This document shows positions 31,223 to 62,467 of a stretch of 64,000 nucleotides of DNA, in pieces. The notes below the pieces were generated by a model, which had not been told where the DNA came from, did no database searches, and worked only from the letters and a program-made list of their open reading frames with translations. This stretch comes from Rhodobacter sp. CZR27 (GTDB lineage Bacteria; Pseudomonadota; Alphaproteobacteria; Rhodobacterales; Rhodobacteraceae). Position 1 is the stretch's first letter. Each line of letters begins with the position of its first letter. A program made the translations under genes and the position numbers. The stretch covers positions 1-64,000 of the forward strand of contig NZ_CP023548.1 of the NCBI RefSeq assembly GCF_002407205.1, in the 5' to 3' direction.

Positions 31223-31849
31223 ATGACCCGCAGCCTGATCCCCGCCATCCTGGCGATGGCCGCCATCGTGGTGGCCTCGAACATCCTCGTGCAGTTCCTG
31301 TTCGGCCAGTGGCTGACGTGGGGTGCCTTCACCTATCCACTCGCCTTCCTCGTGACGGACCTCACCAACCGCCTGCAGGGCGCCGCTGCCGCGCGGCGCG
31401 TGGTGCTGGCGGGCTTCGCGACCGGCATTCTCTGCTCGCTGATCGGCACGCAGATCATGGGCGAGTTCGGCCCGCTCGTGACCCTGCGCATCGCGCTCGC
31501 CTCGGGGCTCGCCTTCCTCGTGGCGCAGATGCTGGATGTGACGGTCTTCGACCGGATGCGCCATAGCCGCCGCTGGTGGCGCGCGCCGCTGATCTCGACG
31601 CTGGTGGGGTCAAGCCTCGATACGGCGATCTTCTTCGGCGTCGCCTTCTCCGCCAGCCTCGTCTGGCTGGAACGGGGCAATGACGTGGCTTGGGCGAACG
31701 GGATTCTGCCGCTTCTGGGCATGGGTCCGGAGGCACCGCTCTGGGTTTCGCTGGCGGTCGCGGACTGGTCCGTCAAACTTCTGCTCGCTTTGGTGGCACT
31801 TCTGCCTTTTCGCATCATTGTGAGGCGGATGACCGCAGACGTTGCGTAA
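31223..31849 (+). CDS. yhhQ: Queuosine precursor transporter (YhhQ/VUT family)
   Basis: A 208-aa membrane protein with about six hydrophobic segments and the family core AFTYPLAFLVTDLTNRLQG near residues 35-53. In E. coli YhhQ imports the queuosine precursors preQ0/preQ1 used in tRNA modification. ATG 31223 is chosen as the first Met of the hydrophobic domain. I looked for a preQ1 riboswitch in the 82-nt leader and found none I could support. A separate candidate promoter lies before it. Confidence 0.88.
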   Translation: MTRSLIPAILAMAAIVVASNILVQFLFGQWLTWGAFTYPLAFLVTDLTNRLQGAAAARRVVLAGFATGILCSLIGTQIMGEFGPLVTLRIALASGLAFLVAQMLDVTVFDRMRHSRRWWRAPLISTLVGSSLDTAIFFGVAFSASLVWLERGNDVAWANGILPLLGMGPEAPLWVSLAVADWSVKLLLALVALLPFRIIVRRMTADVA

Positions 31850-31856
31850 TCATCAT

Positions 31857-31884
31857 TTGACAAACACCAGATCTGTGCCACCTT
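31857..31884 (+). promoter_or_regulatory. Candidate promoter of the leader ORF before arfB
   Basis: A perfect TTGACA (31857-31862) with CACCTT (31879-31884) 16 bp later. The -10 element is a weak match. It would start RNA near 31891, about 14 nt before the extended Shine-Dalgarno sequence. Confidence 0.4.
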
Positions 31885-31904
31885 TCCCCTATCGGCAACC
31901 ATTT

Positions 31905-31919
31905 GAAAGGAGGTGATCC
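31905..31919 (+). promoter_or_regulatory. Fifteen-nt Shine-Dalgarno complementary to the 16S rRNA tail
   Basis: GAAAGGAGGTGATCC matches, base for base, the complement of the bacterial 16S rRNA 3' tail GGATCACCTCCTTTC. A GTG codon follows at optimal spacing (7 nt after AGGAGG). Most genes in this window have 4-6 matching bases here. Bases 31907-31915 can also pair with CATCTCCTT at 32029-32037 further down the same RNA (9 bp with one G-U). Confidence 0.75.
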
Positions 31920-31920
31920 A

Positions 31921-31977
31921 GTGTCTAGAGTGATATTGGAGAGAAGTGTCGGGACAGCTTCCGGGGGTGTTTTCTGA
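31921..31977 (+). CDS. Short leader ORF, 18 codons, unknown
   Basis: Starting from GTG 31921 the peptide is MSRVILERSVGTASGGVF, ending at TGA 31975-31977. I do not recognise it. The reason to call it a gene is the setting: a TTGACA box 60 bp upstream, a 15-nt perfect Shine-Dalgarno at ideal spacing, an internal hairpin (GAAGTGT 31943-31949 with ACA-CTTC 31954-31961, one G bulged), a second small hairpin over the stop codon (GAGGG 31976-31980 with CCCTC 31985-31989), and a strong terminator at 32046-32075. It may be a regulatory leader for arfB, a small protein, or the coding part of a dual-function small RNA. Confidence 0.5.
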   Translation: MSRVILERSVGTASGGVF

Positions 31978-32045
31978 GGGCAGCCCCTCTTAAAACAGAC
32001 CGGATGTTGGGCTAGCTCCTAACTGGCTCATCTCCTTGGATCTCG

Positions 32046-32075
32046 GAAAGGGTCGCCACCCGTGGCGACCCTTTC
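32046..32075 (+). terminator. Strong intrinsic terminator immediately before arfB
   Basis: GAAAGGGTCGCCA (32046-32058) pairs perfectly with TGGCGACCCTTTC (32063-32075) around the loop CCCG, a 13-bp stem ending in CTTTCTCC. It closes the leader transcript that starts near 31891 and stands 20 bp before the arfB ATG, so arfB would be reached only by read-through or by an unseen promoter. Confidence 0.75.
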
Positions 32076-32095
32076 TCCATTCCGAACGGCCGTTC

Positions 32096-32521
32096 ATGTT
32101 GCGCATCACCGATACGATCACCCTCGCCGACTGGGAACTGACCGAGAGCTTCTCGCGCTCCTCCGGTCCCGGCGGGCAGAACGTCAACAAGGTCGAGACC
32201 GCGGTGGAGCTGCGGTTCGAGGCCGAGCGTTCGCCGCATCTGTCCCCGGCCGTGAAGGCGCGGCTGAAGCGGCTGGCCGGGCGGCGCTGGACGCAGGAGG
32301 GCGCCATCGTGATCCGCGCCGAGGAAACCCGCAGCCAGATCCGCAACCGCGAGCTGGCCCGCGAGCGTCTGGCCGAGCTGATCCGCGAGGCGCTGGTCGC
32401 GCCGAAGCGCCGGATCGCGACCAAGCCCACGCTGGGCAGCCAGCGCCGCCGGCTGGCCGCCAAGGCGATCCGCGGCGAGGTGAAGGCCGCCCGCAGCCGC
32501 GTCAGCGACGACGAGGCCTAG
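32096..32521 (+). CDS. arfB: Alternative ribosome-rescue factor ArfB (peptidyl-tRNA hydrolase)
   Basis: A 141-aa GGQ-domain protein that enters stalled ribosomes and releases the nascent chain. The catalytic GGQ is at residues 26-28 in SSGPGGQNVNKVET, and the C-terminal tail is basic (RRRLAAKAIRGEVKAARSRV), as needed to sit in the mRNA channel. I start it at ATG 32096. No Shine-Dalgarno precedes it; instead a perfect 12-bp palindrome, GAACGGCCGTTC, abuts the ATG at 32084-32095. A TTG extension to 32036 would run through the terminator hairpin and is unlikely. The stop overlaps the pncB stop on the other strand by 3 bp or so. Confidence 0.92.
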   Translation: MLRITDTITLADWELTESFSRSSGPGGQNVNKVETAVELRFEAERSPHLSPAVKARLKRLAGRRWTQEGAIVIRAEETRSQIRNRELARERLAELIREALVAPKRRIATKPTLGSQRRRLAAKAIRGEVKAARSRVSDDEA

Positions 32522-59680: not shown

Positions 59681-62467
59681 ATGCCTTTCGTCGAGCTTTC
59701 GGCCACGTCGAACTTCACCTTCCTCACCGGGGCGTCGCATCCGGAAGAACTGATGCGGCGCGCGGCCGACCTCGGGCTGCCGGCGCTTGCCATCGCGGAC
59801 GAGAACTCGGTCGCGGGGATCGTGCGGGCCTTCTGCGAGGCGAAGGAGATCGCGCGCGAGCGGGGAACCGCCCCGCGGCTGATCCCGGCCGCGCGGGTCG
59901 TGACGCGCGAGGGCTTTACCGTGACGCTCCTGCCACGGGACCGCGCCGGCTGGGGGCGGCTCTGCCGTCTGCTGACCAAGGGGCGGCGGGCGGCGAAGAA
60001 GGGCGGCTGCGACCTTGGCCTTGCCGATCTTCTCGACCATGCCGAGGGGCAGGAGATGCTGCTGCATCCGCCGGCCCGCCCGACCGCCGAGTGGCGCGAC
60101 ATGGCCGGGCGGCTTGCCTGCCGCTGTCCGGGGCAGGTGGCGCTGATCCTTGCGCCGACCTATGCCGGGCAGGACGCCGCCCGCTTCGCGCGGCTGGCCG
60201 AACTCGCGCGGCGGCTTGGCGTGCCCACCGTCGCCTCGGGCCTGCCGATGATGCACCACGGCTCGCGCCGCCGCCTCGCCGACGTGCTGACCGCCATCCG
60301 CCTCGGCTGCCGGGTGGACCAGCTGGGCCGGCGCGCCCTGCCGAACGGCGAGCAGCGCATCCGCTCCGAGGCCGAGATGCTCCGCCTCTACCGCGGCCAC
60401 GAGGATGCGATCCACCGCAGTGCCGAGATCGCGGCGCGGCTGACCTTCTGCCTTGGCCAGCTGCGCTACGAATACCCGTCCGAGATCGCGGGGGGCGAAA
60501 GCCCGGCCGACCGCCTCGCGCGGCTGACCGCCGAGGGGCTCGACTGGCGCTATCCGGCGGGGGTGCCCGACCGCGTGCACCGGCAGGCCGCCCATGAACT
60601 CGCCCTGATCGCCAAGCTCCGCTACGAGCCCTATTTCCTGACCGTTCACGACATCGTCCGCTTCGCGCGTAACCGGGGCATCCTGTGCCAGGGCCGCGGC
60701 TCGGCGGCCAATTCCATCGTCTGCTACGCGCTGGGCGTGACCTCTGTTTCCCCCGAGATCGGCACCATGGTCTTCGAGCGTTTCGTCTCCGAAGCCCGCA
60801 ACGAGCCACCCGACATCGACGTGGATTTCGAGCACGAGCGCCGCGAGGAGGTGATCCAGCACATCTACGAGCGTTACGGCCGCCACCGCGCCGGCCTCTG
60901 CGCCACCGTCATCCACTATCGCGGCAAGCGGGCGGTGCGCGAGGTCGGCCGCGCGATGGGCCTGTCCGACGACACGCTTGCCGCCATGTCGAGCCAGATC
61001 TGGGGCTGGGGCGGGCCGGGCAGCCTGACCGAGCAGCGCCTGCGCGAGATCGGCCTCGACCCCGCCGACCGCAGGCTCTGGCTGACGCTGCAACTGATCG
61101 ACGAGATCCAGGGCTTCCCGCGCCACCTGTCCCAGCATGTCGGCGGCTTCGTCATCACCGAGGGGCGGCTGGATGAACTCGTCCCCATCGAGAACGCCGC
61201 GATGGAGGATCGCACGGTGATCTCGTGGGACAAGGACGACATCGACGCGCTGGGGATCCTCAAGGTCGACGTGCTGGCGCTGGGGATGCTGACCTGCATC
61301 CGCAAAGCGTTCGAGCTGATCGAGACCCACCACGGCATCCGCCACACCCTCGCCACCCTGCCGGACCAGGACTCGCGCACCTACGACATGCTCTGCCGGG
61401 CGGATTCGCTGGGCGTCTTCCAGGTCGAGTCTCGGGCACAGATGAACTTCCTGCCCCGGATGCGGCCGCGCTGCTTCTACGACCTCGTGATCCAGGTCGC
61501 GATCATCCGCCCCGGGCCGATCCAGGGCGACATGGTCCATCCCTATATCCGCCGCCGCAACCGCGAGGAGGAGGTCAGCTTCCCCTCGGACGAACTGGGC
61601 CGCGTGCTGGGCAAGACGCTGGGCGTGCCGCTGTTCCAGGAGCAGGCGATGCAGATCGCCATCATCGGCGCGGGCTTCACCCCGGATGAGGCCGACCGCC
61701 TGCGCCGCGCGCTCGCCACCTTCAAGAAGCACGGCAACGTGACGGCGCTGAAGGACCGCTTCATGGAGGGGATGCGGGCCAACGGCTATGACGAGGACTT
61801 CGCCACGCGCTGCTTCTCGCAGATCGAGGGCTTCGGCTCCTACGGCTTCCCCGAGAGCCACGCGGCGAGCTTCGCCTTCCTCGTCTATGCCTCGGCCTGG
61901 ATCAAGTGCCACCACCCCGGCATCTTCGCCTGTGCGCTGCTGAACTCGCAGCCGATGGGCTTCTATGCCCCGGCGCAGATCGTGCGCGACGCCCGCGCGC
62001 ATGGAGTCGTGGTGCTGCCGCCCTGCATCAACGCCAGCCGCTGGGACAACATCATGGAGCCGGACGGGCGGGGCCGCCTCGCCCTGCGCCTTGGCTTCCG
62101 CCAGATCAAGGGCGTGGCCGAGGAGGAGGCGCTCTGGATCGCGGCCGCCCGCGGCAACGGCTATCGCGCGGTCGAGGATGTCTGGCGCCGTGCCGGCGTC
62201 GCGCCCGCGACCGTGACGCGGCTGGCGGAGGCCGACTGCTTCGCAGCCCTCGGCCTTTCGCGGCGCGAGGCGATGTGGCAGGCCCGCGCGCTCTCGGGCG
62301 ACAAGCCCCTGCCGCTCTTTGCGGGCGATCTGGACGGCGAGGGGATCGTGGAGCCCGCGGTGGCCTTGGCCGAGATGACGCTCGGCCAGCAGGTGGTCGA
62401 GGATTACGTGGCCTTCCGCCTCACGCTCCGCGCCCATCCGATGGCGCTCTTGCGCGAGATGGTGTGA
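59681..62467 (+). CDS. dnaE2: Error-prone DNA polymerase DnaE2 (ImuC), short C-terminus
   Basis: A 928-aa family C polymerase acting in SOS mutagenesis with ImuA and ImuB. The PHP domain (FLTGASHPEELMRRAADLG), the palm Asp motif PDIDVDF near residue 377 and a third Asp in KVDVLALGML near 529 are intact. The beta-clamp/HhH region follows (FRQIKGVAEEEALW). It stops after LTLRAHPMALLREMV, whereas family members continue for roughly 130-160 residues with an OB-fold domain and end in DFH; here that part is absent. It is under a LexA box. It faces imuB, although the two usually run in one operon. Confidence 0.93.
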   Translation: MPFVELSATSNFTFLTGASHPEELMRRAADLGLPALAIADENSVAGIVRAFCEAKEIARERGTAPRLIPAARVVTREGFTVTLLPRDRAGWGRLCRLLTKGRRAAKKGGCDLGLADLLDHAEGQEMLLHPPARPTAEWRDMAGRLACRCPGQVALILAPTYAGQDAARFARLAELARRLGVPTVASGLPMMHHGSRRRLADVLTAIRLGCRVDQLGRRALPNGEQRIRSEAEMLRLYRGHEDAIHRSAEIAARLTFCLGQLRYEYPSEIAGGESPADRLARLTAEGLDWRYPAGVPDRVHRQAAHELALIAKLRYEPYFLTVHDIVRFARNRGILCQGRGSAANSIVCYALGVTSVSPEIGTMVFERFVSEARNEPPDIDVDFEHERREEVIQHIYERYGRHRAGLCATVIHYRGKRAVREVGRAMGLSDDTLAAMSSQIWGWGGPGSLTEQRLREIGLDPADRRLWLTLQLIDEIQGFPRHLSQHVGGFVITEGRLDELVPIENAAMEDRTVISWDKDDIDALGILKVDVLALGMLTCIRKAFELIETHHGIRHTLATLPDQDSRTYDMLCRADSLGVFQVESRAQMNFLPRMRPRCFYDLVIQVAIIRPGPIQGDMVHPYIRRRNREEEVSFPSDELGRVLGKTLGVPLFQEQAMQIAIIGAGFTPDEADRLRRALATFKKHGNVTALKDRFMEGMRANGYDEDFATRCFSQIEGFGSYGFPESHAASFAFLVYASAWIKCHHPGIFACALLNSQPMGFYAPAQIVRDARAHGVVVLPPCINASRWDNIMEPDGRGRLALRLGFRQIKGVAEEEALWIAAARGNGYRAVEDVWRRAGVAPATVTRLAEADCFAALGLSRREAMWQARALSGDKPLPLFAGDLDGEGIVEPAVALAEMTLGQQVVEDYVAFRLTLRAHPMALLREMV

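Follow-up and report, generated by a model that had tools for sequence, protein, structure and literature searches.

The locus described here lies within a stretch of 64,000 nucleotides from Rhodobacter sp. CZR27, which is referred to below as the window, and by direct reading of the sequence all of the predicted elements of this small-RNA locus fall within positions 31857-32078 on the + strand. Its upstream neighbour is a gene for a transporter of the Vut_1 type (31223-31849; identified by Pfam), which we take to be yhhQ, and the next gene downstream, on the same strand and with its ATG at 32096, is arfB (32096-32521), recognised by its RF-1 domain (PF00472, E 5.3e-22), as the initial annotation of this DNA had stated; a further neighbour, a nicotinate phosphoribosyltransferase gene according to Pfam, is on the opposite strand. 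The predicted RNA extends on the + strand from an inferred start at 31891 to 32078, where a putative terminator would end it. It carries on that strand an extended Shine-Dalgarno (SD) sequence (31905-31921), an ORF of 18 sense codons (31921-31977) with the GTG start (31921-31923) that had been noted and a TGA stop (31975-31977), a hairpin P1 that includes the start codon (31917-31940; arms UCCAGUGUC/GAUAUUGGA), a hairpin P2 over the stop codon (31955-32009; apex GGGCAnCCC), a small hairpin P3 (32009-32027; UUGG/CUAA), an anti-SD block CAUCUCCUU (32029-32037; read as CATCTCCTT), which can close on the SD and resembles the 16S rRNA tail, and a stem-loop of the intrinsic-terminator type (32046-32075). 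The predicted fold of this 188-nt RNA has an energy of -83.9 kcal/mol vs -64.6 kcal/mol (sd 5.04) for shuffled sequences (z -3.83). At the Rfam cut-offs, the window as a whole contains only a serC leader (RF00517; 8868-8919, + strand, 69.9 bits).

Related loci are widespread in the family Rhodobacteraceae, where blastn detects similar DNA in 242 of the 295 genomes at E<=0.01 (222 at E<=1e-5 and 20 above 1e-5). For the comparative work 133 family loci were taken, of which 131 gave the SD motif, and the other two, L223 (cut past the motif) and L299 (with a rearranged SD), were left out; L002, L007 and L008 were dropped, as they represent the same places as L001 and L006, and 100 additional family loci are the better-scoring blastn matches among those listed. 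An alignment of 33 rows uses 33 of 35 references picked by hand from the 131 loci, with L247 and L297 excluded due to cut ends that looked wrong. A set of 179 loci from the class Alphaproteobacteria was reduced by the removal of 11 duplicates to 168, 18 of which are of the family type and 150 of other peptide types. In all of the comparative tests the statistics ignore the kinship of the loci.

The view that this is a self-contained gene agrees with the presence of promoter-like and terminator-like elements of its own and with the retention of its features in the family. The -35-like hexamer TTGACA (31857-31862, + strand) is present as had been reported and its placement is conserved, since 116 of the 131 family loci have TTGAC, TTGCC or CTTGA in the 62 nt that precede the SD, 104 of them at -47 to -49; a simple promoter scan does not report the hexamer, as no matching -10 box was found. 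The sole sigma-70-like match in that scan is at 31903-31931 on the + strand (TTGAAA, 17 nt, TAGAGT; 9/12), overlapping the SD together with the beginning of the ORF, and it is probably a by-product of the conserved sequence. At the other end, the perfect 13-bp palindrome with a 4-nt loop, which had been described as a terminator, is indeed present, but a simple terminator scan omits this stem, whose U-run is weak (CTTTCTCC), and reports as its only terminator-like site 31949-31964. By a loose pattern, at least three T residues occur at the site following the terminator-like stem in 110 of the 131 family loci.

The most striking element is the SD, whose first 16 nt (31905-31920) read GAAAGGAGGTGATCCA. 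Its perfect complementarity to the tail of 16S rRNA, as claimed initially, is borne out, with the difference that duplex computation extends it over 17 nt (GAAAGGAGGTGATCCAG vs CTGGATCACCTCCTTTC) rather than 15. The tail sequence used for this purpose, GCGGCTGGATCACCTCCTTTCTAAGG, comes from five further family genomes and, as far as the portion of that article covered here goes, it agrees with an oligonucleotide in a Sinorhizobium study (PMC6943124); the conserved 16S stretch was found in none of five genomes of the organism's own genus, the source genome included, perhaps due to masking. The first 16 nt of the SD are GAAAGGAGGTGATCCA in 72 of the 131 family loci and GAAAGGAGGTGGTCCA in 53. 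The exact 16-mer occurs once in the 4.44 Mb genome, and 10 other sites among the matches listed all have 2 mismatches; the one of these that falls in the window (60843-60858) sits within a long coding frame, presumably dnaE2-like. When computed as separate duplexes, the pairing of the SD with the 16S tail is stronger than its pairing with the locus' own 3' region in all 131 loci (-31.8 vs -18.6 kcal/mol).

Across the class, 75 of 385 genomes contain a 21-nt motif covering the SD and the start codon when up to 2 mismatches are allowed, whereas the reversed motif used as a control gives 0 among the matches listed for these genomes, and in a sample of the phylum the motif with 1 mismatch is present in 28 of 51 alphaproteobacterial genomes vs 0 of 149 others. 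A count with 3 mismatches (247 of the 295 family genomes) is not used as the main figure, because the antisense 16S sequence (GAAAGGAGGTGATCCAGCCGC) also matches. The loci with the motif, among the matches listed, include those from Sphingomonas, Novosphingobium, Bradyrhizobium, Bosea, Methylobacterium, Mesorhizobium and Brevundimonas. One further locus (L103), from a metagenome-assembled genome labelled Gemmatimonadetes, has the alphaproteobacterial motif with a TTG start, and the label of this bin may be wrong.

The initial annotation knew of no described family with this architecture, and this statement does not hold, since the Rfam family RF01867 (CC2171, a Caulobacter sRNA) is a recognisable relative. 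In a permissive scan of 31700-32200 the entire model aligns with 31897-32072 at 39.7 bits (E 5.4e-7), the score lying below the gathering score of 75 bits, and over the 5' block of the model (GAAAGGAGGUGAUCCAGUGUCU) the locus is identical. The pairing by which RF01867 closes, between codons 3-5 and a segment before the last stem, is not formed here in standard manner, several of the 7 pairs being non-standard, and ORF-start:3' stems above the 95th percentile of cross-order pairs occur in 5 of 145 family-type loci, i.e. at the chance rate. Judged by its sequence, the locus is hence best described as a relative of RF01867 below the cut-off and not as a formal member. The RF01867 model matches 85 of the 385 class genomes at E<=0.001 (13 over the cut-off), and only Caulobacter vibrioides among 14 named control genomes; of 12 loci scanned with it, those from Methylobacterium (L145), Bosea (L111) and Brevundimonas (L162) reach the cut-off. 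In six genomes of the class (G309, G335, G455, G539, G565 and G572) the model matches two or three places; some of the second matches are weak and the others may be paralogues. It should be noted that the 21-nt motif is the main ground for assuming kinship across orders, and a strong SD alone could favour this motif.

With regard to earlier reports, CC2171 appears as an sRNA in the part of the Rfam 15 paper that was covered, and for Mesorhizobium huakuii an RF01867 candidate with a sequenced extent of 215 nt is given in the covered portion of PMC5596092, where 'no' in the table stands for undetected candidates. A text search of the literature gave nothing on this locus among the matches listed, and the passages found on StsR and other known Rhodobacter sRNAs (including those of PMC8307010) do not tie them to it. 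It is possible that an RNA-seq supplement already lists the locus under a number.

The 18 sense codons of the ORF specify VSRVILERSVGTASGGVF, the first residue being read as Met. The ORF is exactly 18 codons long in 128 of the 131 family loci, and 17, 19 and 20 codons long in the other three. At codon 19 of the 131 loci there are 60 TGA, 42 TAG, 26 TAA, 3 other codons and 0 TGG, for which free variation of the two purines would predict 19.7 occurrences (again with kinship ignored). The start codon is ATG in 79, GTG in 86 and TTG in 3 of the 168 distinct class loci, always at the same position, a count that includes some probable ordinary genes with a strong SD (e.g. L047 and L061); further, L299, despite its rearranged SD, retains an ATG and 18 codons. 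Because of the 18-codon length, the fixed start codons and the stops without TGG at codon 19, it is very probable, on comparative sequence grounds, that the ORF is translated. In three loci, L043, L061 and L169, the same extended SD is located before frames of 56-59 codons resembling secreted small proteins, and in L047 before one of 39 codons; these four probably represent ordinary genes whose SD is strong.

In the ORFs of 128 family loci, S2 is present in 128, L6 in 124, E7 in 128, V10 in 120, G11 in 116 and T12 in 125, while the residues encoded by codons 4-5 and 14-18 are variable. At positions 1, 2 and 3 the entropy is 0.7, 1.5 and 0.5 bits for codon 4 and 0.92, 0.91 and 0.56 bits for codon 5, a pattern that is the reverse of protein constraint and matches the demand of P1. 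Since codons 4-5 are least variable at position 3 and the last codons track the stop hairpin, the act of translation, more than the peptide, seems to be under selection, and the residues conserved in the family (VSR..LE..VGT) may at the same time be compatible with a role of the peptide. Between orders the peptides are unrelated by eye (VSRVILER.., MSHGSAER.., VSHCHQP.., MSSDF..) and mostly 14 to 26 residues long. The MSHGS type (Sphingomonadales) mostly has ORFs of 18 codons, the Bradyrhizobium type has ORFs of 14, and the remaining types mostly have ORFs of 20 to 26; in 12 class loci the ORF is at least 30 codons long or runs off the contig.

The three hairpins differ in the evidence behind them. 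P1 is predicted by folding and in the 33-row alignment 97.7% of its cells are paired, with no two-sided changes. In shortened window RNAs that end no later than 32028 the start codon has an unpaired probability of 0.00, which becomes 0.08 in the two longest RNAs; because P1 alone pairs the start codon, an open SD need not mean an open start. For P2, whose existence over the stop codon had been proposed from the window and which is kept in the family, the native sequences fold at -24.06 kcal/mol vs -18.35 kcal/mol for two-locus chimeras (128 loci), a difference of 5.7 kcal/mol. When pairs are counted in the fold of each locus, each of the positions -8 to -2 relative to the stop has a partner on its other side in 64 to 111 of the 128 loci, with six kinds of pairs represented at each position, and codons 16-18 pair with sequence 3' of the stop. 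RNAalifold does not recover P2, also not from the 33-row alignment, and its arms differ in register between loci. As far as predicted folds can tell, the chimera test on P2 is the strongest structural evidence available here. P3, recognised from counts and from the consensus fold of the 33-row alignment, gives no signal in the chimera test (-9.97 vs -9.99; 98 loci).

The possible pairing of the SD with the anti-SD, another feature pointed out at the beginning, is also retained in the family. A C[AG][CT]CTCC block is present in 119 of the 131 family loci vs 215 of 2620 shuffled sequences, and CA[TC]CTCC in 99 of 131 vs 70 of 2620. On the 33 chosen rows RNAalifold pairs the anti-SD with the SD unaided, and all 7 pairs of this helix are intact in 33/33 rows; the changes seen are compatible but one-sided, with two-sided changes in 0 of the 7 pairs, due to which the helix rests on conservation. 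The covariation score of the whole structure is likewise reached by 47 of 500 shuffles, and 97.6% of the cells of the whole tested structure pair vs 48 to 56% when slid, with column shuffles reaching 97.3%. At the one variable SD position, the 12th base (A/G), pairing with the partner is present in 62 of 116 loci, and in 53 an A faces a C.

In fold predictions for the window, the unpaired probability of the SD lies at 0.42-0.47 as long as the RNA ends no later than 32028 and at 0.03 when it ends at 32040; for the family its mean openness goes from 0.60, when the RNA is cut after the stop, to 0.18 at full length, and in 122 of the 131 loci the predicted partner of the SD is mainly the 3' region. 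A minimum-energy count in which 122/122 loci were closed by SD:anti-SD pairing is set aside, because those loci were preselected for an anti-SD and cut just 3' of it. The anti-SD block reads CUGGCUCAUCUCCUU where the 16S tail has CUGGAUCACCUCCUU, its CUGG part being only partly kept in the family, and a 16S-like extension of it over the start codon, which brings the window duplex to 15 pairs, is partial in the family (the pattern for it leaves 15 of the 131 loci unmatched, and 28 of the 116 matched loci carry 5 mismatches). Taken as predictions of structure, these results suggest that the SD is shut by a conserved 3' anti-SD and that ribosomes could gate its opening.

The same relationships are less uniform in the other orders of Alphaproteobacteria. 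Enrichment of SD:anti-SD pairing is clear only in the family type (-17.8 vs -14.3 shuffled), the differences in five other groups being 0.1 to 2.6 kcal/mol. For P2, whose covariation is clear in the family, native sequences of the MSHGS type (-20.6 vs -16.7) and of the Bradyrhizobium type (8 loci; -22.5 vs -19.7) also fold better than chimeras made within each group, whereas the gain is weak or absent in three other groups (-19.7 vs -19.0; -16.1 vs -16.4; -20.2 vs -18.9). A 3' segment matching codons 3-5 is seen in 13 of 62 loci of the SH type (TCATTGTC/GACAATGG) and 20 of 32 of the MSHGS type (CATGGTT/GACCATG), and native duplexes between the ORF start and the 3' region surpass cross-order ones by a mean of 3.5 to 7.1 kcal/mol in four groups, compared with 1.4 kcal/mol in the family type and 1.8 kcal/mol in the Bradyrhizobium type. 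Closing stems above the 95th percentile of cross-order pairs occur in 10/62, 3/25, 0/32, 0/10 and 0/8 loci from these orders, and the consensus folds of the other-order groups lack ORF-start:3' closing helices. The cross-order closing helices and stop hairpins are, accordingly, put forward here as leads only, derived from modelled structures.

The initial annotation had further proposed that the locus is a leader in which the formation of the terminator depends on ribosomes occupying the ORF, so that arfB would be regulated by transcription attenuation. In favour of this explanation, arfB is the next gene on the same strand in the window and in 28 of the 33 family loci with flanks and is also in the stretch in 13 of the 18 family-type loci of the class set, and the ORF, SD, anti-SD and terminator-like stem are all there. 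However, the anti-SD (32029-32037) and the terminator stem (32046-32075) do not overlap and both helices occur in the minimum-energy fold, because of which no pair of mutually exclusive structures is seen. Moreover, five of the family loci (L023, L025, L030, L031 and L034) keep the ORF intact with arfB missing from the stretch; the distance from the SD to the arfB start varies from 183 to 467 nt; and arfB is downstream in 0 of the 150 loci of other peptide types, 139 of which have at least 600 nt of downstream sequence. The linkage of the RNA to arfB is thus local to the family Rhodobacteraceae, where the upstream neighbour, yhhQ, is shared by 32 of the 33 distinct loci with flanks. On the grounds of the coexisting helices and the synteny, the role of an arfB attenuator or leader was rejected, and we regard it as very improbable. 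In a single case among the 150 other-type loci, L144 from a metagenome-assembled genome of Hyphomonadaceae, arfB is upstream of the RNA and on the opposite strand, which is possibly an old linkage with arfB.

The interpretation that we prefer, with a probability of roughly one half (about 0.52), is that the locus is a free-standing, translated, ribosome-gated small-RNA gene, representing the Rhodobacteraceae branch of a class-wide group that includes RF01867. For Rhodobacteraceae, the comparison of sequences has shown conservation of the locus, a signature of translation and the stop hairpin, and the ORF is more constant in frame and length than in its residues. While the RNA is being made, the SD would be partly open and a 30S subunit could load through its 16S tail, after which the translating ribosome would melt P1 and P2. 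If no ribosome is present, the anti-SD, which is an imperfect copy of the 16S tail, would shut the SD and the RNA would fold closed. There would be in this way two forms, a ribosome-bound open one and a closed one, the 3' block being exposed only in the former. The candidate outputs of such an RNA are pairing with other mRNAs, the holding of 30S subunits and RNA stability, our preference being for a 3' block that, once exposed, acts in trans. The suggestion made at the outset of a dual-function small RNA fits with this, the translation of its ORF being indicated by the evolutionary signature.

Two other explanations concern the role of the ORF. According to one of these, the locus is a small mRNA for a functional peptide of 18 residues, with the structure just tuning its translation. 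The conserved frame, start and stop and the six residues kept in 116-128 of the 128 loci are consistent with such a function, and in the covered portions of PMC10117765 and PMC4117421 some alphaproteobacterial sRNAs are described as translated. We nevertheless consider it unlikely, as codons 4-5 and 14-18 vary, the least change in codons 4-5 is at position 3, pairing extends across the stop, and the peptides differ by eye between orders. The opposite explanation, that the RNA is a non-coding sRNA or a 30S-binding decoy whose ORF is incidental and whose SD merely holds the 30S subunit, could account for a 16S pairing that far exceeds the needs of initiation, for the predicted pairing of the start codon in P1 before the anti-SD is made, and for the typing of the relative RF01867 as an sRNA by Rfam. 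However, start codons confined to ATG, GTG and TTG and stops distributed over TGA, TAG and TAA with no TGG would be unexpected in an untranslated sequence, and this explanation is judged to be rather unlikely.

The preferred reading of a translated, ribosome-gated RNA can be taken one step further, to a sensor of free 30S subunits that tunes initiation to the supply of ribosomes, a proposal which we advance as a speculation and hold to be quite improbable. In such a sensor the SD would be held shut by the built-in imperfect copy of the 16S tail, and the real tail, with its perfect 17-nt pairing, would displace the copy by strand exchange. Translation of a near-arbitrary ORF and the stop hairpin would then set the time for which the RNA is open, during which the freed 16S-like block would compete for SD sequences in other mRNAs.

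Anti-SD sRNAs of Rhodobacter (CcsR and the 'cuckoo' RNAs) have the motif CCUCCUCCC, which is anti-SD-like as in this locus. For these sRNAs we know of no description of an RNA that combines a translated ORF and a complementary SD. CC2171 resembles the locus in its similar length and in having a 3' stem-loop, besides the full-length alignment and the identical 5' block noted above; however, the RF01867 consensus closes by CAUUGUC:GACAAUG, which joins codons 3-5 to the stretch preceding the last stem, whereas the locus closes by SD:anti-SD, and Rfam types the family as sRNA, its annotation in the scan naming no coding function. As described in the covered portion of PMC10117765, rnTrpL/peTrpL of Sinorhizobium meliloti is likewise a short RNA with a translated ORF (14 codons, compared with 18 here) that is able to act apart from the next gene, but it is a leaderless tryptophan attenuator, in contrast to a locus with an extreme SD and no operon attenuation seen. 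The extended SD motifs of Staphylococcus aureus also involve long SD:16S pairing for initiation; these, in the part of PMC13009471 that was covered, are on mRNAs, while here the motif is on a tiny RNA that also has an imperfect copy of the 16S tail. In the sections of PMC4117421 covered, two earlier Caulobacter ncRNAs are reported to be translated.

The significance of these results is that for an RNA type filed in Rfam as an sRNA, the comparison of sequences indicates translation, with the site at which translation takes place kept more strictly than the peptide, and an SD that matches the end of 16S rRNA. If the binding of ribosomes does gate the RNA, it would offer a direct route to how cells read their supply of ribosomes, and should the interpretation as a 30S sensor be true, Alphaproteobacteria would tune initiation to this supply with one small RNA. 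Such a route would be of interest in bacteria in which many genes lack an SD, as in Caulobacter, where this applies to 75.4% of the genes according to the portion of PMC4117421 covered here.
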